From the NCBI GenBank assembly GCA_963920765.1, contig OY987244.1, forward strand, positions 16,100,358 through 16,164,357: a DNA stretch of 64,000 nucleotides, written 5' to 3'. The translations under genes were made by a program, and so were the position numbers. Source of the stretch: Ulota crispa (Eukaryota; Streptophyta; Bryopsida; Orthotrichales; Orthotrichaceae). Shown piece after piece: positions 2,091-62,716 of this stretch (the first letter of the stretch is position 1; each line of letters starts with the position of its first letter). The notes beneath the pieces were generated by a model. The model was given only the letters and a program-made list of their open reading frames with translations, was not told the DNA's origin and did not search any database.

Positions 2091-3242
2091 TTTTCCACCG
2101 TGAGGGACAAGCCTAGTCGGGAACCAGCAAGGAACGGAGCCCAACTGCACCGAAGCTCGAGTGCCAAGGTAACAGACAATTCACCTTCACCGGAGCACGA
2201 ACACGTCCCCGGGGTTCCCGAATTGGCGCATACCCCGTTCCCAAAAGCCTCTAATAGCGGGTCACCCGCGATCAACAGAGCAGGTTCCAGACTTTTCCAT
2301 CTAGAAGCTTGGGCCGGGCCGGGCCGGGGGCGGGGGCGGGAGCCGATCTTGGCTGCAGAGGAGACGGGACCTGACGCGGCCCGGCCCGGCCCGCGCCGGG
2401 CGAGGAAGGGAGGGAGGGAGGGCATGGCGTGGCTGCTTCTCACCGTTGTTGGGAAGGCGGGGATGTGAGCCCTGTCTCTTCTTCTCTCTTTGGCCTTTAC
2501 TCTTTGGGGACACTAGCCGCACTAACTCTTACTCACTCTGCGGCAGCGATGGTCACGCCACCACCAGCACGCTCCATCGCTTGTTCTCGCCCGCCTGGTG
2601 TGCGCGCAACGAGCGCTTACGACGGCTTTTGCGGCGCTTTCGATTCGGTTACCGATTTCGTCGCCTGCCTTGCCGATTTGAGTGAGTTCTCCCTTCGCCG
2701 GAAATAATAAGGTGAGTTTTTGCAAAGCTTCGGTTGCTCTGCAGTCTCGTTTTCGTGTGAGCTTGAGTTTGCCGGGTGTGTTTTGAGACAGTCGGGGAGC
2801 GATCGAGAAACGAGCGGTGGTAGGTGGAGAAAGGCGGAGAACGAGAGTTGGAGTGGTGATGTTTGGTGATGTGATGTGTGTATGTGTGTGTGTGTGTTTG
2901 TAGAGCGGTGAGATCGGGTGTCATGCAAGGGAAGAGCGTGCATGTGGACGCGTGCGCCGGGAGAATAACGGACGACGAGACAGAGGGCCGTTTGCTGGCC
3001 CGAGAAGGAGGAGAAGAAGGAGGAGGAGGAGGAAGAGGAGGAGGAGCAGTTGCGGTGGCGGTGGTGGTTGCGAGGAGAAGGTCAAGGACAGGGATGGTCG
3101 GGCCGGGGTGAGCCACACGATGGCGGCGTGTGGAAATGTTGGTATGGCATGAAGGCGTTGAGGCGCAGTGGTTGGATCTTGGTAGACTTGTAGGGAGGCT
3201 GCGGTTAGGAAGGGACTCCGGCCTTATCGGGAGCGGCGTTTT
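2091..3242 (+). promoter_or_regulatory. GC-rich, CpG-dense leader/promoter of the EPL1-like gene
   Basis: The sequence switches from AT-rich to GC-rich at about 2090 and stays so until the start codon at 3243. It contains GGGCCGGGCC/GGGGGCGGG tracts (2310-2345), a CT-rich block (2470-2530), a (TG)n run (2877-2900) and a GGAGGA purine tract (3000-3050). A good donor (AAG/GTGAGT) lies at 2711-2712, so part of this region may be a 5'-UTR intron. No TATA box stands out. Several open frames exist on both strands, but they are compositional, repetitive and mutually overlapping. Confidence 0.55.
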
Positions 3243-6200
3243 ATGGAGGCGAAAGCTGTCACGAGCGGCATGACTGCGATGTCACGGCGATCTCGTGAGC
3301 ATCGCTCCAGCAAGAAAATTGCCGGTACGATCCAAGAGTCGCAATTAGATATCGCGTCGACTTCCAAGAATCCCAAGGTAGGCATTCTTAGTTCGTCAGA
3401 ACATCATCACCGCAAGGACAGTTCGAATTTTCGGAGGTCGTCTCGTGTAACGCGCTTTTCCCAGAATCCGCCCGGCGCCGTGTGCCTTGCGAAGGTCCTA
3501 GACGCCGGGGCCAATGTCGCGAAAGTGCACGTGAAGAGTGCGTCTGCTGCTCTGTCGTCCGTTAATTCGTCTTTCGTCGTCGGTGGTGAGAGCGAAGCGT
3601 CGAAGCGCGAGGCAGGGAGTCCGGTGGTTTCTAGTTCGGTTCGGCAACCGCATGCCGTCGAGTCTAATCATATATCTGCGGTTTCAGGGGTTGGCGGCTC
3701 GCCAGATGCGGCCGGGCAGCCTAAGGGGAGACCGTTGAGGGGAAGACCACGGGGAAGGCATGTGGCACCCGTCAAGAAGATCGCGAAGCGAGCAAAGCGT
3801 TTGCAGGAGGTGCCTTTGTCGGAAAGCGATGGAGCACGGATTTTAGGCCGGAGAATAAAAGTGTTCTGGCGAGATGAGAACAAGTGGTTCTATGGAGTAG
3901 TGAAAGCATATAATAGAGGGCGAAAATCACATAAGATAGTCTATGATGACAAAGAAGAGGAGTGGCTGAAATTGCACGAAGAGAAATTCAAGCTTCAGGT
4001 GTTGGACGGGGAGGTGTTTGGTACGCAGGAACAAATTGTTTCGAGGCAGTTTGCGAAGGTCACAGGCAATGGTCTAAAGATTAGTAGCTCTATTGGGAAG
4101 AGTAATAGGGTGAACGAGCCGGAGCACTTGAATGGGGAGGTTGCTGCATCTTCGGCCAACGGAGAGATTCAGGCTCAAAAATTGACGACTGTTCAACCTA
4201 TTCCTGTTCGTGAAAGCGTGAATAGCCTGAAATATCCAGGAGTCTGCTCCGATGGGGATCACCGCGACCAAGGTTCCAACATCAGAGAGACCGGATTCAA
4301 AGGCAGTGCAGTCGGGGAAGGTGCTACACCAACGGTGTTTGAAGGTGCAGACCTTGAAGACCCGTATGCCATAGACCATACGAGTATTTCGGATTCTCTG
4401 GTTTTGTTCATGAGATCCAAGCAGAATCTCTTGGAGTCCAGAAAGGTTCCGGCAACGCGTGAGGCGGTACCGTCTGTACAACCGCTATCCGTGGCTGCGA
4501 TTCCAACAGAGGTATCTCCAAGCTTGGATCCTTCCTTGTGTAATGAGGCGAAGGATAAAGTAGAGATTTCTGATGTTGCTCTCGGTTCTTCCGAGGCTCG
4601 TGATGTCTTCTATGATCTTGCGTCATCTGAGGAAAGAGGAGCGCCTGAAGGGATCTCATGTGAGGATGGGAAGGGTTCTGTGGATACGGAGTCACCTAAA
4701 AGCGCGAAGGGTGGGGACGTAGATCCTATCACCGAAAGCGTAGATCTTGAAGACCCGTATGCCATAGACCATACCAGTATTTTGGATTCTCTGGTTATGT
4801 TCAGGAGATCCAAGCAGAGTCACGTGGAGTCGAGGAATGTTTCAGCAACGAGTGAGGCGATACCGTCTGGACAACCCATAGTTGTGGCTGCGAACCCAAT
4901 AGAGGTGTCTCCAAGCGTGGAGATATGTGATGAGGCGAAGGATAGATTAGAGATTTCTGATGTCACACTCGCTTTTTCCGACACATGTGATTCTTCCTGT
5001 GATCTTGCAACATCCAAGGGATGCATGTTCGAAAGAGAAGCGCCTGAAGGGATCTCTTGTGACGATGGGAAGGGTTTTGCTGTTACTGAGTTGCTTGATT
5101 GCGATAAGGTTGGGGGTAAAGATTCAAGAACTGAGCCTGCAAATTCAATCCCGTCAGTCTCTTTGGGAAGTAGTGAAGGTGGCGCGTTGCACTGGAGTGG
5201 GCAGCGAAATGTCGAGCGCGGGGTAGGAGAAGACGTGCATTTTAGTAAGGCAGATATGAATAATCTGGACTTGGTTTTGAGCGATCGAAGAGAGGAAGGC
5301 AATGTGCGACTTGAATCTAGAGATGATCATGCGGACAGCGCGTCAGATGATGTTGCGGAGCATGGGAACAGAGCGGTTGAGTACACTGTTTGTAGTGAAG
5401 TCGGTTCATATTTGGGGCTAAAGCACTGGGCAGGAAGCGAGTCCGTTAAGGGGCTGGCATCGAAGATATTATTAGTTCCAAGGTCCTCACGTGAAGGCAA
5501 GCACCATGACAGTAGGCGGCCTCGGTTTACTTGGTTTGTGAGAAGTGAGCGATACATTTCGTGGTATATTGCAACAAATTTGGTGAAGATAGATTGCACA
5601 ATACCCGGGCGTTACCTTTCGTCATGGATATCTGACATAGATGGCGTGTGGAGATATGTTCCCTACCTCATGCTCTCTGTGGACGAGGTGTTGGAGAGTG
5701 ATGTTTCCCAGGAAAATTCGTCCCTGACACCGAGGACCCGCTGTTATGGGGAGCATATCGTGAAGGATATTGCATGGCGAAGAAGTTCATTGTCAGGGCT
5801 CGGCTGTAGAAATTGTGGGACCCTTGCATGTTTCTCTTTCCGTTTAGGAACTGCGAGGCTTTTACTTCGATTAACTCGTACGGCGTTGGATGACTCCGAC
5901 TCACAGCTCATACTGCGGCAAGGCAAAGACTCGGAAGTTGTTGGAGGGTTTGTCGAGACCAATCCACCATGTTCCGAGTTGCCGTGTACTATTAGTGAGA
6001 GCATGGCAGTTGAGCAGCCTTGTGAGCCGTTAACAACTGAGCAGCCTCCTGAATCGATGCTAGTTGAGCAGCTAGATGGAATTGTTGGACTTCCGGTCCG
6101 TGAGGACTTAGACAGTGGAGGTAAGGAAATCCATCTAGAGGGGGACATAGAAATAGGCGATGCGAGTTTACCCTGTAATGGCGAAGATGGTGCTTCTGAA

Positions 6201-9200
6201 CCTTACCCGGCTGCACCTCGTGCAAATGATACTGAGGTAAGTACATACTCTGTTGCCACTGGCTGGTAGCCTTCGTGATGTGTCTTAGCCTGACTAGGCC
6301 ATTTTTGTGGGGTTCGTAGACCTTGGAGGAGGTTGGTGCTAGCCGTTCACTGACGTTCCTTGTAATCTGTAGGATGACGTTGCCAGAGATACGAACTTGG
6401 CATTCGGAGGTGGAGTTTCCGAAGAAGTCACTGAAGTACAAATCGGAAACGCTGTGGAGGGTGAAGACGAAGGTGGTCTCGCTTGTTACAGGTAATTGCT
6501 GGAGTTCATCCTTGACCTTTCTTTTTAATGTTTAGGTGTGTTTTATGTGTTAATTTCTATAATTTATGGTCAAGAATTCTGGGTATTGCTGTCGTTTAAG
6601 AGAGGCTGCTGCAACCTTGGACGGAATGAAGAATATGGCCTGTATTTGCAACCTTTGGTATAGTACTCTGTGGCAACTATGAAAAATGGTTACGATGGTA
6701 CTGTTAATTTTGCAGGAGTTGGAAGTCTGTGAAGCGGGGATTTTCACAAGTTACACCTGAGTCGCTCGGAAACGATGGCTTGGGAACCGAAGACAGGGTC
6801 CAAGGATTGCTCGACAGTGAGTTGGGTTGCATGGCATTAACCAAACGACAAAAAGTTCATGTGGAAAGCTTGAGCAGTCCAGAGTTTGATTATGAAAAAG
6901 ACGATGTTGAGAAGGACCTGTCAGTTAAGGAATGTGAGGTGCACGGAGATATGAATACCAGGAGTGTGGATACAGGAGGATGTGATTCAGCTCTTCCAAG
7001 AGTAAACGTGTTGAAGCTTCGTAAGTGTTCCACGGGTAAAGGTGGGTGGCGCGTGGCTGGAAATTCATGCATGACTGATCGTACTACCATGCCGTCCGGG
7101 GACGGTGGCGAGCCTTTGACACCTTCCTCCACTGCGGACAGGAAGAGGTCTTTCAGTGAATGTTTTAACCAACCAGAGAGTCCCGAGGAAAATGGTCAGC
7201 AAGCGTCGTTTACGGAAGACCCCCATGTCGATGGGCACAAACCTGCTTGCAATGTCGATGGGATTGAGAAGGTGAAAGGGAAGGGATTGTGGTCAAACTG
7301 CGAAGTGTCATCCATAAATGATGTGACCTTCAATCCTAGGAAGCGTTTTAAGAATGGTTCTATTAGCTCAGGTTCTAGCGATGATTCGTACGCAACACAC
7401 TTTCGAGCCGAAGAGACGTACCCCAGCAGCAATCTGACGGATCGTGTTTATCCAGATTCTGCTTGTCAAGGATGCGTGGCGAACGTGCTTGTGGTTCGCC
7501 ATGACAGGGGTTGGCGGGAGTATGGAGCTACCATTGATCTTCAATCTTGTCATGGTCAAGGTTGGATGTTGATAATATCTGTCCGTGGCGAGAACATGTA
7601 TGCGTTCAAGGCGGAGCATGCCATCGTTACAGGAACCACGAATCGACACAGCCATGCTATAGTTTGGAAAGGCGGGAAGGGGTGGAGCTTGGAGTTTGAA
7701 GACAAGAAGCAGTGGCAGGTATTTAAGGAGTTGCATGAAGAATGTTACCGGCGAAATGCAAAAACCTCTTCAGTTCGCCAGATTCCAATTCCTGGTGTCA
7801 GGCACGTTGAAGATATTGCACCAAGAAGTCCAGGTTGTCACTTTGTGCGACCATACTCTAGGTACATAACCACAATGGAAGATGAAGTGGAGATGGCCCT
7901 GGGTAACAGCCGAGTGGTGTATGATATGGACTCCGAGGACGAGCAATGGTTAGCCCAAGTCAATACCGAAAGGGCAAGTGCACGAGGAACAAGGACTCGT
8001 CCTCTGATAGCTGAGGAGACTCTGGAGAGGCTTATGGACAAGCTGGAGAAGGATGCATACATGCATCAGCAGCAACATAAGACAACAGAATTGGACCCAG
8101 ATGATGTTGCCTTAGAGTCGTGCATTGGACTAGCTACACAGGAAGTCATCAAGGTCATCTACAGTTACTGGTCGGAGAAGCGAAAGCGGAAAGGGATGCC
8201 ATTAGTACGCCATTTTCAGGTATGCTTTTGTGGGACGTGCTTGTTTTGGTCTGTTTTTACTTTTCAGCTCCATGCATGCTACTGCCTGAGCAGGCTTACT
8301 TTGCCAAACTGTACAGGTCGCGTGTTTGTAAGTGTGTCTCCGTGTTGTGCGTTGTGTCACTTCATAGTGCTTTATGTTTTTACATGAGAGGTTTCAGACT
8401 AGCGATGTTGATTTATAAGAGTTAGTCTGATGTGTCACTTCGTGAGGTTTCTGACATCATTTTTTTTCAGCCTCCGGCATGGGAGCAATACCAGAAACAG
8501 GTGAAAATATGGGAGCAGGAAATAGCGAGGCTGCAGCTGGAACAGCCTTCTGCAAGCGTGCAACAGTTAACGGAAGCTATGAGGAAGCCTCCCTATTTTG
8601 CTTTCTGCTTGCGACCACGTGGACTGGAAGCACAGCTGAAGCTATCGAAGCAAAAATCACACAGGAAGCAGACTTGGCCTGGGAGTGCACCTCGGCCATG
8701 GGTTGGGCTAGGCAGCTTGGATGGCCTTGGCAGGAGACAGTATTACACAGAACCAGGAAATGGACTGCCTCCTGGTATTTTCCTTGCTTCCTTTGCATTT
8801 CCTTTTTTCCCTCCGTCCGACGAGTCGACTACATTAGGTCGGCGTATCCATTCCAATTAGGTTAATTGTTGTTCTTGATGTGATTCCATTGATCTTTTTC
8901 TTGTAGTTTAATGTCCTAAGGTATGTTTGTATCGGAATTTATAACGAAACGTTCTTGCTACTCTTCCTTCTCAGACTTCTACTTTCTTTTGTGTTTTGCT
9001 TTGCTCGTTCAGTACGCTTGTCTTTAGATACTCGTAATAGTCTGAACATACTTCTGAGGCTGACCTGTGGTTCCCTACTTTGTGTTCCAGGGCCAAGAAG
9101 ACCCGGTCGTCCTCGCCTGACAGGGGTAGTGGGAGCGGACCTGACAGGGTCCTTCAACGCCATCATGAGGGAGCACCCTGTCCTCGGAGGAGCGTCCAAG

Positions 9201-31792: not shown

Positions 31793-32184
31793 AGGTAGGC
31801 GCACCCATAAGCGTGGAAATAAGGGTTTTGGAGTAGGTAAAACAATTGACTAACTTTGAAAAAAATACTATATGTTAGGAAATGGAAATCAAAAGTATTG
31901 GCATCAATTTCAAGGTTCCAATTGCAAGCATTTGTTCACAAAGATTTTTCAAAGTCCAAAAACTTGAAATTGTAGGAACTATGTGAAAGAGATGCTAATC
32001 ACAAGACTTGTTGGTTCTTAAACAGTGAGATGGGTACTCAAAATCTCATGCTAGTCACCCACAACCATCACTTCATCTCCCATAACCATCACTATCACCC
32101 ACAACCATTTGTTTTTTTATTGATTAGCCCTGCCACTGTCAAGTGACGGGCATGGGGACGCAACGCTTATGGATGCTGCTATCT
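31793..32184. mobile_element. TA-flanked MITE, AGGTAGG(A/C)GC family, diverged copy
   Basis: It begins AGGTAGGCGCACCCATAAGC after TA (31791-31792) and ends in the inverse of AGATAGCAGCATCCATAAGC before TA (32185-32186). The interior differs from copies 1 and 2. Its right TA lies inside the TTAA that starts the next element, so the two abut. Confidence 0.65.
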
Positions 32185-33097
32185 TAACCCTTTAAAGACC
32201 ACACACACTTTCCCAAAACCCACCAGAAACTGGGCAATAAAATTAGAAGTGCATTTGAATCAAATATGGACCCAATTTGAATAATCCAACAGTACAAATG
32301 TGAAGGACACCTTGTTTGTTGTAATGTATCAAAATTTCAACTAGATTTACCGTTGGAGGTGAAATATTATAATGATTGAGTGAGCCATATAAGGAAACTC
32401 TCTAGTTTTTCATGCTTGTGTGGTTTTGATTGTTAACACTTCATGCAAGCTTTGGTTGAGAAGAGCCTTACATTTCTAGAAAGCAAGGTTTCCCACCTAT
32501 CCAACAAGACTAATTTCACACAAAATAAACAAAAATAGCAATCGCAAGGTGTAGCTAAGTGGACAAAAAGAGTCAAAAATCTCATTTTCTTTGCTACCCT
32601 AAAACGGTTCTACAAGAAATTTGATAATTGTTTTGGAAAATCTGATTGATGAAAACAATCCAAAATTGACCTTAAATGTAGGACATTAAATTTTTACAAT
32701 GAAATGATAGCACCATTTCAATAAATCTCAAAATACTACAATTATACTACAACCGTATAGAGAAATAATACAAGCGTATTTCTTGAGCAATTTGAAATTT
32801 CTTGGGACCGCACGATTGAAATGTGGCATTCTTCTTGAATGTTTGATGTATTGTGTTGTTGCTTTGATCCATCTATGACGAAATATGGATACATATTTTG
32901 AGGCCACGATGTATAAACACCATTATTTATCAACTCCCATATCCGATTCCATTGTTGTTTCTTGGATTGGATGCAAAATTCTTGTGATCACAAGCGTTCT
33001 TCAAGATCATTTTCCAAATTGTTAAGCGGTTTTACTGTATAGGCCAAAAACTACTCTCCCGAACCAAAATATGGTTCGGTGGTCTGTAAAAGGTTAA
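32184..33097. mobile_element. TTAA-ended piggyBac-type element with ends like the 5.46-kb element
   Basis: The left end TTAACCCTTTAAAGACCAC and the inverted right end TTAACCTTTTACAGACCAC match at 17 of 19 positions. They are the closest in this window to the termini of the transposase-bearing element (TTAACCCTTTAACGAC). The interior (914 bp in all) is AT-rich and non-coding. It is a plausible non-autonomous partner of that element. Confidence 0.8.
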
Positions 33098-50569: not shown

Positions 50570-51060
50570 TTAATCCCTATACAACAAAGGGGACAACATT
50601 TTTGTCCCTTGGTTGTGAAAAAAACACTTTGTAGGATGAAAAAAAGTTGTTTTTCATTTGATTTTTTAATAAGTGATCATGCATACATGGTCCATCATGA
50701 AAGGCAAAAAATAAACAATCTCACCAAATGCACTCATATTTTTTAGTAATCCAAATTGTGAGAAGATTTATAGACATAGTGTTAGGTCCCATGTTGCCCT
50801 TCTTGCAATTTTCATGAAGTAAACATGAAGTGTTGATTTCTACAACTTTTAGAAACAAATTTATAATGGTTGGGCACTTGCCACACCATTGTATAGCATT
50901 GTAGCTAGAGGAGCACTTCTTGCAATTTTCATAAAGTCAACATTCAATGTTGATTTTATGATTTTTAGAAATAGTATTAGAATGGTTGGGCACTTGCCAC
51001 ACCACCATATAACATTGTAGAAGGGCAAGCACAATGACTAGTCGGGCGTTTAAGGGTTAA
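50570..51060. mobile_element. Probable TTAA-ended element with internal tandem duplication
   Basis: The right end CGGGCGTTTAAGGGTTAA is typical. The left end TTAATCCCTATACAAC is a weaker partner. Inside, a ~125-bp unit (CTTCTTGCAATTTTCAT...GGTTGGGCACTTGCCACACC) occurs twice in tandem at about 50797-51020. Non-coding. Confidence 0.5.
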
Positions 51061-56813: not shown

Positions 56814-58273
56814 ATCGACTTGACTTGTTTAGGGTACCAAATGCATTCACCTTGCAAGCCTTTTGACGTGTAAGGTTTTACTTTGGCAAGGTTTGAATTA
56901 GTGCAACTTATAGAGAGGTTCCTCACAAGATCAATTTACCTTTGAAGCAGAAGATCGATTTAGCAACAGCTAAGTTGCCTGGAAGTGAAGTATTGTAGCC
57001 CCAAGTTGTATGTCAATCAATTTAGCAATCTTCGTAGCAGCTGAGTTGTCCAAACCTAAGATATCAACATGCTATTCATCATAACTCATCGTAATTCAAG
57101 GCTGTTCAAATAAAAAAAATTGTACCATATGGCTTAAGAGACGTTAACCCTTTAACGACGGGTCGACCCATTTGGAGTCGACTGCTTTCTTTGATTTTCA
57201 GGGAATTATGCTTAGAATTTGGAGATAAGGGTAAGGGGACGGATGTAGGGAATATTACAGAGCATTGACTGAACTTTGTGGCATAAGAATCTGACATGGC
57301 ACCTAGAAATGGGGATGAAAAGACCAGAGGAGGGGTGGCTAGAAATATGCCTTAGAAAGTAGAAAAGATGGAGAGCGACGTAAAAGAGAGCGTATTGTAC
57401 GTTGTTCCATCCTGTTGTCATCAGACTGTGGGAACGTTATTTTTTCATTGGGAACTGTAGTGGCCGTTGCTTGCATGCCTAGCTGGCAGTGGAGGGACAG
57501 TGGGTTCACTACACTGTTGGAGCATCCAATGTGCTTCAGGCGTGAAGCGGAAGCTCGTTTTCCGTAGAAGCGCATCCGAGGCGAGGAGATCGCGGCTTAT
57601 CTTTCGAATTGCTGGGGGGTTTAGATCTCTTCAATATCTATCCACTCAACGGCTGCCTTGTATTTTGCGCTTAGGTTTTCGTTCATTGCAAAGTAATGGG
57701 GCCGCATGTAGAGGGAGGGTGATTTATCAGATGTTCGTTCTTCGCGCGATTTTGACCGGTGGTGAGGAAATCAACAGTCAGATTTTGTAGAAGAAGCGCG
57801 TGACAGAGGGTTTGCAAAGGGAGGGTTGTATTTACATGTTTTTCTAGTGCTTTGAAGTGGGCAACTGCCAACAAGCGCCACGCCGTTTGAAAGCAACATC
57901 ATTGCAGGGCCTAGTTTTGACGTGTTTCGACAGCGGTTTAGTTCGCGCGCAGTGGCGATGGCGGGTGGGCAAAATCGAGAGAGTACACATTGCAATGCCT
58001 ACACATGGCCCCCTCCCCCTCTTCCACCTCAGGAATTCAGTGCCACTGCCTGCGTCTTGGAAAAATGGGCAGCAAGTACGCGTCTGCCTCCTCAAAAATT
58101 GGAAGTTCTCTTGAGTCTACTTGATCGAAGGTACCTGGTCGCACATCCAATTCCTGCCTGTGCTCGTGGATACGGCAACTTGGAGAGTCTTAGCGGGGCG
58201 CAGCTTCGGTACCTATTTTACCGCTAGTCAGCAAAGCTGCTCGATTGGGGGCAGAGGCGCAAGGAAGGGAGCG

Positions 58274-60993
58274 ATGGCGGATTCCCGGCGGAGCTGTATG
58301 ACCAGTTGCGCACAGCGGTCTTTCCGTTACGTTGTGGTAGGCGTTTCGGTGGGTTCCAATGGCGTTGCGAATGTCTCGCATGGAGGTACGCAAACATGGC
58401 CATTGCTGCCGGTGCATCACTCCAATTTGCTTATTCCACCGAGCACCTCAGCTAGGGACGAGTTTGTCAACCATGTAGTGCCAATTGTGAATGCTGGAAA
58501 GGAAAATGTCGACGTGACTCCCCCACCGGTAGTGACGGTGGTGAAGGCTAAGCAAAAATATGTGAGTAAACAGCAAGTCTGCAAGGGCATCGATGGTGAA
58601 TTGGACTCACAGAGGAACGTCTGTACCAAGTTCACAAGTACCGGCGTACCTGTAGCAGCTGCCAAGGCATCCTTGCCAAAGCGGCCTGCACAAACCCAGC
58701 AAAAACGCAAATTGCCAGTGAAGCCAGTTGACTTTGATCCATCCGGGACAGTCGATGTTCCCACTCCTACAGAGAGTAATTGACGTGGAAAGGTGGGAGG
58801 TCGGGGTGGGGGTCCGGGTCGTGGACGTCGACGACAAGGCAACAATCAAAGAGAATCTAGCGACGAGGACTCAGGGCCAGCTGTCCCCCCTGATGCCAGA
58901 GAATTCGAGCCAGCAAGTCTACGAGCCGCACCAGATTCAATCCGGCGAGTGCGAGTGTTGCTTTGACATCTGACGTGGGGAGGAGAGGTCCTACACATGC
59001 CTTGCCCAGAAGTCTGACACAATTGTTGGAGGAGGGGGACTCACAGATAATGGCAATGTTGTGCATGTGGACTTTAGAGCTGATTTAGGAGTGCAAGCCG
59101 TTCCTCGCGGTGTTGCCCAGGAGCTTCCAGCGCATGCAGCCTCGACGGGGAATTTGGGTCACGCCTCAGACGATGGAGAGTCTGTGAAGCTCGAACCAGG
59201 GACCATTCACCACGCTGAGCGACATTCTAGTGTCCTTCCGGGGTGGGAGGTCGGAGACAGTGATTCAGATCACGATTGGGACTCGGAGCTCTCTGTATCG
59301 GGAGCGACCCCGGCAATGGCATATCCAGTGGTGCGTCTTCGTTTGACAAGCGTGAGGACCATCCGCTTACTGTGCTTGGTGATCTAGGAATATATCAGGT
59401 TGGGGCTGAGGAGGAAAATCCAGACCTGGAGGACAAGTATCGTGACTGGAACTGGCACGCGAGGAGTTGGGCTCTACTGCCGCGGGAAGCTTTTATTGGG
59501 AGAACGCTGGGCCCAAGTGAAGACTTGCCGAAGAGGAAGGTGCTGGAGCCCGTCGACTACTTCCTCCTGTTCTGGGACGAGGTTCTACTAAGGAAGATTT
59601 TCCATAAAAGCAACGAATACACAGACTATGTGGATCCTACTACCGGGAAGAGGAAGGGTGGGGATGAGACAGTGGAACCCATCACACTACAGGAATTTCA
59701 GCAATTCATAGGTATTTGCTGCCTTATGGGAGTTCAAAACCAGCCTTCAATTCGTGATTATTGGAGCCGTGGAGATGGTGCTCTGTACTGCGAGGACGTG
59801 GCTACAATGATGTCGAGATTTTGTTTCGAATACATTCTGCGCTGCTTGTACATGACACGCAAGTACAGTTTTGTTACAGATGAACAGAGCCCTTTGTATG
59901 ATTCCATAGGCAAGTGCAGGTGGATTCTGGAGCACGTTGAGTCCCGCTTCCAACGATTTTGGAATTTGTCACTGTATGTGACGGTAGATGAGTGTATGGT
60001 GGCCTACAATAGTAAGTTCTGTTCTTTCAAAAAGTACTTACCTACAAAGCCAATCACTCATGGGATCAAGCCGTGGGCATTGGTGTGTTCGTTGACCAAC
60101 TATGTGTATAGATTGGAGATCTATGTGGAGAAGGACAACGCCCAGCCAGATCCAGGACCAAGTGCAGTACAAATTGGCATGGCCAAGCAAGTGGTTAGCC
60201 GTTTGACGAAGGGGTTGGAGGGGAAGTGGACACAGTAACTTGTGACAATTACTTCACTTCTCCTTTTCTATTTGATGACTTATTGACCCGTGGATTCTAT
60301 GCGGTTGGCACTATAAGGAAACAACGGAAGGGGTTTCCAACTAGCCTTGACGTCACCCATGATCAGCCTCGCGGTACACTCCACATCAGAGTGCACAAGG
60401 ATGAGAGGATGGCTGCCATCTAGTGGCAAGATACGAAGGGGGTGTGCTTCTTGTCAACCGTGGCTAATCTGATGATACCTGGTGGAGTTGTCACTAATTG
60501 GGTGTCTAGTTGAAGAGTGTTGGAGATTCAGACATCTCCTATACGGATGCTGTATTCTAGGAAGATGGGTGGGGTCGACGTGGCGGACTAGAACCAATCA
60601 TACTACAGCACACAGATTGCCACAAAAAAGTGGTGGTATCGTGTCTATTTTTTCTGCCTGGATTCAAGCCTAGCGAATTCTGTCACCATTCACAAAGAGA
60701 TGTCAAAGGCCTTAGGAGAGAGACCTATCACACACAAGGAGTTTCAACTTCGGCAGGCTTACTCCTTCATGGGTTGGCCGTACAAGCCAGAGAGATCAGC
60801 AGTGCCACCTCGCAGAGTGCTTGAGAGGGCTACGCACGCTGGAGTGAGCCATGTGCCGAAGAAAACAACCCTCCGTCGAGTGTGCCGGCTGTGCAAACGG
60901 CATACGTCCTTCATTTGCCCACAATGTGAAGGGGTCCGCTTATGCACAGCTGAATGCTTCGAGTTCTACCACACTCTAGCCCCTGTTGTGTAG
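58274..60993 (+). pseudogene. piggyBac (DDE_Tnp_1_7) transposase, frameshifted and with stops
   Basis: The N-terminal region is weak: a Pro/Lys-rich part, then GGRGGGPGRGRRR and acidic ESSDEDSG and GDSDSDHDWDSE blocks. The core is clear from about 59400: YFLLFWDEVLL, FQQFIGICCLMGVQNQPSIRDYW, VTVDECMVAYNS (first Asp, codon 59987), KYLPTKPITHGIKPW, VTCDNYFTSPFLFDDLL (second Asp, codon 60244), GTIRKQRKGFPTSL, MGGVDVAD (third, codon 60577) and a C-terminal Cys-rich zinc domain (CRLCKRHTSFICPQC...CTAEC). The three Asp residues fit the catalytic triad. Breaks: a frameshift near 59330, another near 60226, and stops at 58781, 60421, 60511 and 60589. The exact start is uncertain. The copy cannot make a full protein. 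Confidence 0.88.
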
Positions 60994-61171
60994 TTCCCGA
61001 ACAAGTTTTTGTGGGTGCATTGGTAAGTTACGTTTCCATGTTTGTATGATGTTCAGTTGTTGAACATGAGCACAACGTTTGAGTTCTTGTATTATCTAGT
61101 CGTGCATTTTGTAATTGCCATTGGTCATGGATGATTGTCGAGGTGTGCAGGTTTGCTCCTTTCTTTCTCAG

Positions 61172-61319
61172 TGGCACCGCAGTTTTCCCAGTTCCGGTCC
61201 ATGGTGAAGGAGATTTTGGATTTGCCGGGAGTGTCCAAGTGGTTGGAGTCGAAGCCCCCGGGTGTGAGCAGCGGTACTCGTCGTGGAGGAGGTGGTGGTT
61301 ATGTTTCCTCACGAACAAG
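61172..61319 (+). other. Exon-like patch inside the piggyBac-type element
   Basis: A CT-rich tract ending CAG (61170-61171, with alternatives at 61182 and 61191) is followed by an open stretch reading FRSMVKEILDLPGVSKWLES and then a Gly/Arg-rich RRGGGGGYVSSRTR. It ends at a GTAAAG donor (61320). It is not part of the known piggyBac domain order. It could be a captured host exon, part of the element's own second product, or chance. I do not recognise the protein. Confidence 0.35.
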
Positions 61320-62716
61320 GTAAAGCACCCTGCACCTCCAGAAACTGCCCTTTTTTTTGGTTCACGTGGTTTTTTGTGTAGCAAGTCGCATGCATTCTAT
61401 TGTTGCTTTCTAAGAGACTACGCTGCTGCCTCGACTTTGGAGCGCTCATCCTTCGGATTTCAGCGTGCAAAATCTGTCTTTGTCAAGTGTGGGTAGCCAG
61501 AATTTAAAGCATGAGTAAGGCAACTCAGCTGATGTGGTTGTGTTCTTAGAAGACTAAATACGGTATGTTGTTGCCTCTGTGGGTGAGTGCAGGTCACGGA
61601 AGATGGGATGCACGAACAGACGAAGCCTCTACGTTGAGTACCAGCAATTTGTTGCCTTGTATTTCTTGTAGCTCACTTTTTGTCTTTCTTTTGCTCCGGC
61701 TCCACATCGGAATCGAACATCCACTGCCTCACAGTGGGTCATGCAGCCTAGTATCACATGCTAGGTTAATGAGAACGCTTTCTAGGTGAATTTCAGCAAG
61801 ACTGCGACTCTCGGTTTTTGAATCTTCGTGAACCAGATGTGTAACTCTACTTGAACCCGAAGCATGTTGGTTCCGCCAATGGCTGAGACTTCCCCTTTAT
61901 GCGCATTCGCTCTGTTTTCTTTGTCTGTATGTGCTATGATTCTCAGGTCACCTCCCCTGTAGCACGTGATAATCTGTGACGGTGCTTTCTTGGGGGAGTA
62001 CAAAGCACCCTCTGTTGTCATTTCAGTTACGGTCAATGACGTATCTTGAGCAATGTTCTCGCCTAAGCCTTTTATCTAAACCGCTCTGATTTGATCAAAC
62101 CGGCTTCACCTACTTGACGAAGCTTACCTGTTGCGACCTGCTCCTTTACGCTAAGCAAAGTTGCAACCGCTCTGTTCAGCTGAAGCTGCGCGCTCTGGTT
62201 CGCAGGATACTTACTCTAAATCTGCCCTGCTCGGTTTACTCCAGCGTGGCGTTCCCCCTGCCAAGGATGGAACTTGCTCAGGGTCTTCCCCATAAAAGAA
62301 AGGCCACACGTCATTTTCTCGTTCCAAAAGAAACCTCTCTAAAGATATACATGCAAAAGAAGTACATCACCCGTATAACTCCAAGCTTTGTACGCATGCA
62401 TGATACATTCACTATAAAAACAGCCCAGTCACCACCTTAAACACTTGAAAATGATATGAATGAGAGGAGCACTATGCAATGGAGACATCCGTACGGTCAG
62501 ATCTGTAAACCCGAATTCCCCATTTTGTGAAAGTCGAAGTCAAATCTGAGACCCTAAACAGCCCAGCCCCCCCCAAATCGACCCGGTCGTTAAAGGGTTA
62601 AGCATTCTTTAAAATAAGAGTATCACATGACGTTTTCTCTCATGTTTAGATGCCTGCCAAAAGGAAAGGAGCCCAAGAACCATTGTCGAATTTGTATATA
62701 TATAAATCTGACTAAG

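Follow-up and report, generated by a model that had tools for sequence, protein, structure and literature searches.

An inactivated piggyBac-superfamily transposon, very likely an old resident of a green-plant nuclear genome, and its diverse relatives

The window studied here is a stretch of 64,000 nucleotides (C3:16100358-16164357) lying within C3, a contig of 34 Mb, in an assembly of 274.8 Mb and 157 contigs. Positions 57144-62601 of the window, on the + strand, are a DNA transposon of the piggyBac superfamily, 5,458 bp long. We regard it as very probable (about 0.93) that this element is an inactivated cut-and-paste transposon and an old resident of the nuclear genome of a green plant, probably a moss. 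An earlier, sequence-only reading of the same DNA had held that the lineage was once active and that the window copy is a recently broken master-type copy. The first of these claims is supported by the core and the ends of the element, together with the 5'-type ends and the Pfam matches found across the genome. The second disagrees with the divergence data given below.

Ends and target site

TTAA and matching inverted ends had been claimed at both boundaries, and they are indeed found there: TTAACCCTTTAACGAC begins at 57144 and its exact inverse finishes at 62601, both coordinates being exact. The terminal inverted repeats are short and start with CCC, the first 16 bases being identical between the 5' and 3' ends. 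The TTAA tetranucleotide also stands at the ends of two related elements, L071 and L072, and of 19 short derivatives (see below). A scan of the window for the 16-mer end, leaving one base free and allowing at most two mismatches, finds it six times; 100 shuffles give 0.32 on average. Three of the six are perfect, two of them being the termini of the element itself. The right flank of the element is, from about 110 bp outward, a repeat (72-84%).

Transposase core

The Pfam profile DDE_Tnp_1_7 matches the element in two pieces lying in different frames, at 59276-60238 (E value 2.1e-37, 129.7 bits) and at 60226-60423 (E value 9e-12, 45.4 bits), the cut-off being 22.4 bits. By sequence, with E values up to 1 allowed, the only relatives of the first piece in the PDB are piggyBac (6x67, E value 1.3e-8) and piggyBat (9c0f, E value 1.7e-5). 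The core and these two relatives agree with the piggyBac-type identity first proposed. In the piggyBac core, each of three aspartates has a catalytic role. The three regions expected to carry this triad, VTVDEC, CDNYFTS and GGVDVAD, are all present in the window core (Table 1). Their motifs VTVDE, CDN and GGVD align with those of 30 other copies, namely those with the best Pfam scores, which together with the window pieces form the sample used for divergence below. Moreover, the first aspartate of the window core is aligned to the first aspartate of 6x67. The core is damaged by a single change of frame, near 60226-60238, and by three in-frame stops between that point and 60993.

Table 1. Features of the transposon, in window coordinates.
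Feature	Position	Strand	Remarks
5' terminal inverted repeat	57144..57167	+	includes TTAA (57144-57147)
N-terminal domain	57958..58326	+	WPPPP..EF.ATA..L..WA....RLP...LLDRRYL..HPIP....NLESLSGAQLRYLFY; one stop inside; match C3:16158315-16158683
Linker	58115..59387	+	basic KQKYV, RG-rich and acidic (SDSDHDWD) stretches; more than one frame; overlap with the end of the N-terminal domain, in a different frame
Transposase core, first part	59264..60238	+	open frame; VTVDEC (first catalytic aspartate)
Transposase core, second part	60226..60423	+	CDNYFTS (second catalytic aspartate, 60241-60261)
Transposase core, last part	60424..60993	+	GGVDVAD (60568-60588); weakly scoring Cys/His finger (about 60877-60975); contains in-frame stops
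3' part after the transposase	60994..62577	+	only self-match in the genome
3' terminal inverted repeat	62578..62601	-	includes TTAA (62598-62601)

The family across the genome

The DDE_Tnp_1_7 profile gives at least 120 matches above the cut-off, at 116 places, 116 of the 528 first-look candidates having been scored. When these matches are united with core DNA matches (31 of 33) and with typed relatives of an exon of another locus, L069 (87 of 150 matches), at least 212 distinct piggyBac core loci are obtained. This figure is a lower bound because of the 116 candidates scored out of 528. The other 63 matches of the L069 exon were left out by eye, with no check by script, as overlapping the other lists. 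The loci are spread over contigs C1-C11, of which C1, C2, C3, C4, C5 and C8 measure 21-41 Mb. Ten of the DDE_Tnp_1_7 matches, at eight loci, have a matched stretch free of stops. One of these loci, L003 on C4, has GGVN in place of GGVD; therefore, a stop-free copy is not necessarily an active one.

The ends tell of a family too. Genome-wide, 135 5'-type ends (up to two mismatches) and 496 3'-type ends (up to three mismatches) were found, versus none of either type with reversed-pattern controls. In a distance test covering 100 of the 135 5' ends and 29 of the 33 core DNA matches, six ends, one of them that of the window element, have a typed core no more than 8 kb away, when a rough estimate predicts about 0.7. 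In all six cases the core follows on the same strand, 2.2-2.9 kb downstream of the end. Among the related elements, L072 (767-6352, 5,586 bp) is bounded by the same kind of TTAA ends, and shows in order the N-terminal domain, an RG-rich and acidic linker, the core and the finger. L073 has the same order, with only its 5' end found in the stretch fetched. L071 (395-6018, 5,624 bp) has the same kind of ends, its 3' end with three mismatches in 16; the N-terminal domain, an acidic stretch and the core were seen in it, the RG-rich stretch and the finger were not.

Several further observations concern the family. In three pairs of copies, the two members have identical or almost identical scores and lie on opposite strands, 15-109 kb apart (C7:18203169/18223004, C2:36765124/36779670 and C10:676128/785346); these may be inverted duplications or assembly effects. 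Locus L069 (C1:1178700-1184000) has stop-free exons, forms a separate, split branch and keeps the core motifs, and no end of the window type was found in these 5.3 kb. It (C1:1180649-1181995) is possibly a domesticated gene or a surviving element. It may just be the latter, since the exon tested has many relatives, many of them with stops, the nearest at 69%. A search for relatives on viral contigs gave 58 pattern matches, none of which was confirmed.

A conserved N-terminal domain

Upstream of the core is a domain of about 100-120 amino acids that is conserved between copies. It has no Pfam match at E values up to 1, and its fold as predicted from the single sequence (mean predicted local distance difference test score, pLDDT, of 48.7) is not usable. 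Among the window copy, L072, L073 and L070, the domain is 43-60% identical, and the ratio of nonsynonymous to synonymous distance (dN/dS) ranges from 0.13 to 0.43 over the six pairs. A genome-wide search finds the domain at 41 places (query and window counted; weakest E value 6.8e-4). A typed piggyBac core follows 1.1-5.0 kb downstream at 37 of them, in every case on the same strand, when simple arithmetic from the counts predicts about 0.2 such close pairings by chance. The remaining four places have no core among the typed loci.

Does this domain belong to the transposase? It is conceivable, if rather unlikely, that it forms a second gene of the element, distinct from that of the transposase. 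The lack of a Pfam match would suit such a gene, as would the frame carrying the domain, which differs from that of the linker in the window copy, in L072 and in L073. This change of frame could reflect an intron or frame damage. Against a second gene stands the finding that 37 of the 41 places have a core downstream on the same strand, an arrangement that is, however, compatible with one spliced gene and with two genes alike. Binding to DNA or to the chromatin of the host is a possible function of the domain, which is the most promising new point of the analysis.

Short derivatives

The search for short derivatives covered 30 of the 135 end loci, namely those matching best. At 19 of these, a second end with up to three mismatches faces the first at a distance of 402-638 bp. 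These TTAA-bounded derivatives fall into two sizes: 13 measure 402-431 bp, and the other 6 measure 591-638 bp. Facing ends that have four mismatches or lie farther away (in L039, L040, L056 and L066) are not counted among the 19, nor is one at 653 bp inside the L071 element (L052). Nearest neighbours among the 19 are 0.86-0.94 identical, and thus no very recent movement is visible in this sample. With the window element they have in common only terminal stretches of 19-38 bp, and in one case 115 bp at 70%, so that there is no support for the window element as their source.

Other ends of this kind occur in the window. A further perfect TTAACCCTTTAA end stands at 32184-32199, with a weaker facing end (two mismatches) at 33082-33097. 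The pair, 914 bp between outer edges (32184-33097), is a possible short piggyBac-type derivative; it gave no match to the 19 derivatives compared. Two TTAACCCTTAAA-type ends, with two mismatches, lie at 59-74 and 51045-51060.

Age and divergence

The 30 copies are highly diverse. Their median pairwise amino-acid identity is 0.35 (range 0.27-0.81, 435 pairs), and single linkage sorts them into 9 groups at 50% identity and 14 at 60%. The window core is closest to L013, L027 and L036, with 58-70% identity in its first part and 69-77% in its second, the other 27 copies being at 40% or less. L003, which is outside the 30, is 70% identical to the first core part. In the comparisons with L013, L027 and L036, the nonsynonymous distance is 0.13-0.30 and the synonymous distance undefined. 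The latter is undefined in all eight comparisons made with the window core, which gives no dN/dS ratio and which we read as saturation. Six related pairs among the 30 copies could be compared; dN/dS is 0.07-0.17 in three and undefined in two, the sixth being considered further on. From this low dN/dS, it is probable that the proteins were still constrained during most of the divergence and that decay followed. The 30 copies and the window pieces together hold 120 in-frame stops (66 TAG, 38 TGA and 16 TAA). For 55 of these, descent from the one-step source codon that is commonest in the alignment would have required a C-to-T or G-to-A change. These counts, made without control for codon usage, would fit the loss of methylated C.

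At the DNA level, the window core has no match of at least 200 bases above 71% identity except to itself. No other place in the genome matches the 3' 1.6 kb of the element; for the 5' 2.2 kb there are, besides the element itself, three short matching pieces at 67-70%. Because of these matches to the 3' and 5' parts, the window copy appears to be an old lone member with no close relative left in the genome, and not a recent master.

Could the single-copy 3' part instead betray an element that came in recently, by horizontal transfer from another eukaryote, and did not spread? The distance to the nearest of the 30 compared copies (58-77% identity in the core) would also agree with such an arrival. 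We nevertheless hold it to be improbable, since relatives with the same kind of ends and N-terminal domain reside in the same genome and the window copy has already suffered several lesions. Even less credit can be given to a recently broken master copy. Both ends are intact and the core has just one frame change and three stops, as might be expected of one, but no daughter copies are seen, no long DNA match exceeds 71% besides the element itself, and the short derivatives have only terminal stretches in common with it. The core relatives at 58-77%, the undefined synonymous distance and the unmatched 3' part all disagree with the claim of a recent master.

The host genome

The chlorophyll a-b binding family is represented by 56 matches in the genome. 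One of the encoded proteins, compared with the PDB, is closest, after the fused 9vfj chain, to 7xqp and 8htu (355 and 354 bits), which we take to come from the same organism, the next being 8c29 (344 bits). 8HTU is called PpPSI-L in a figure legend (PMC10005731), a name that we read as pointing to Physcomitrella. Therefore, the host is a green plant and probably a moss, as far as the small margin from one protein allows. The plant host assumed at the outset is supported by these 56 matches and by the protein compared.

That the contig is a chimera or includes contaminating animal DNA is unlikely, and is the alternative to which we give the least weight: the element does differ in G+C content (0.48-0.53 in 2-kb windows inside it versus 0.32-0.42 around it, some of the latter overlapping it), but the window is inside a 34-Mb contig and contains a frame with an EPL1 domain, relatives are found on C1-C11, and the genome has the chlorophyll a-b binding matches just mentioned.

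The EPL1 domain (6708-8387) belongs to long open frames at 3186-8387 of the window, where weak Tudor matches, below the cut-off, also occur (3186-6269); these frames look like an enhancer-of-polycomb-like gene. Elsewhere in the assembly, light-harvesting genes are clustered on both strands of C4:21.39-21.77 Mb, their scores being equal or almost so. Contig C82 has four short light-harvesting matches split over 7 kb (C82:25807-32669), and might be foreign DNA.

Proposed history and its weak points

The following history can be proposed for the inactivated, plant-resident transposon. By homology to piggyBac and piggyBat, an intact dimeric transposase would have bound both termini through its Cys/His finger and its core. 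With its three aspartates, it would have nicked the element and cut it out through TTAA hairpins. The excised element would then have been joined into a new TTAA. The family would have split into many subfamilies while still functional, and would have yielded short derivatives with the same ends before decaying copy by copy. All steps of movement are drawn from homology; the ends, the target, the core motifs and the spread of the family are observed here. The role of each catalytic aspartate in piggyBac transposases is dealt with in a 2025 paper (PMC11707139).

The following points weigh against this account. First, the C-terminal Cys-rich domain that had been claimed is seen as a Cys/His pattern, but zf-Tnp_2 at 60700-60993 (E value 2.4e-4) reaches 22 bits, below its cut-off of 24 bits. 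Second, the most alike pair of copies, L009-L018, has a dN/dS of 0.60. Third, the linker appears less constrained, with dN/dS of 0.49-0.60 in four of five comparisons and an undefined value in the fifth. Fourth, no match spanning the joined flanks of the window element, as an empty site would, was found among the 40 scored of 2,398 candidates. Finally, the lack of a DDE_Tnp_1_7 match in 14 control genomes is a weak control, these genomes not being shown to be plants.

More tentatively, the data may describe a plant-resident branch of piggyBac, with elements of about 5.5 kb, a conserved and selected N-terminal domain absent from Pfam, deep subfamilies in one, probably moss, genome, and many, perhaps hundreds, of short TTAA derivatives.

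Comparison with known systems

Published work already records piggyBac in land plants. PiggyBac is among the superfamilies found in all taxonomic groups surveyed, land plants being one group (PMC4438587), and it is stated to occur in plants (PMC10140906; PMC10813416). Plant reports had been described as few, which is fair; this does not amount to absence, as shown by the same survey (PMC4438587) and by a fern repeat table (PMC6890710). Among the literature matches listed, most subscription papers and Repbase being outside their scope, there was no dedicated study of a moss or plant piggyBac; the "piggybac" matches in PMC10619864 are to the word "piggybacking". What is new here is the sibling elements of 5.59 and 5.62 kb, the N-terminal domain, the derivatives of about 410 and 630 bp and the 496 3'-type ends. 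The piggyBac studies consulted concern animal elements, and the present host is less studied. With some two hundred diverse copies, end-matched short derivatives and a conserved extra domain in one plant genome, it can be asked whether piggyBac is an ancient resident of land plants or entered them repeatedly, and what the N-terminal region does.

Among land plants, PiggyBac is annotated in the fern Ceratopteris, as a line of 1,230 entries in the repeat table (PMC6890710). The piggyBac of Trichoplusia ni (6x67/6x68) likewise has a TTAA target, short end repeats and a homologous core; to its C-terminal Cys-rich domain corresponds, in the window element, a Cys/His pattern scoring below the Pfam cut-off. 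The moth element measures 2,472 bp (PMC10140906), whereas the window element, of 5,458 bp, adds a conserved N-terminal domain upstream. The same source describes bee piggyBac elements, also with TTAA sites and short end repeats; complete ones are 2.23-3.52 kb long, with transposases of about 580 amino acids (PMC10140906), and are thus shorter than the present element. The core of piggyBat of Myotis (9c0f) is homologous by sequence to the window core. According to a 2025 paper (PMC11707139), the superfamily lacks conservation in its N-terminal regions, for which disorder is predicted; in the family of the window element, unlike in that description, the N-terminal domain is conserved between copies.

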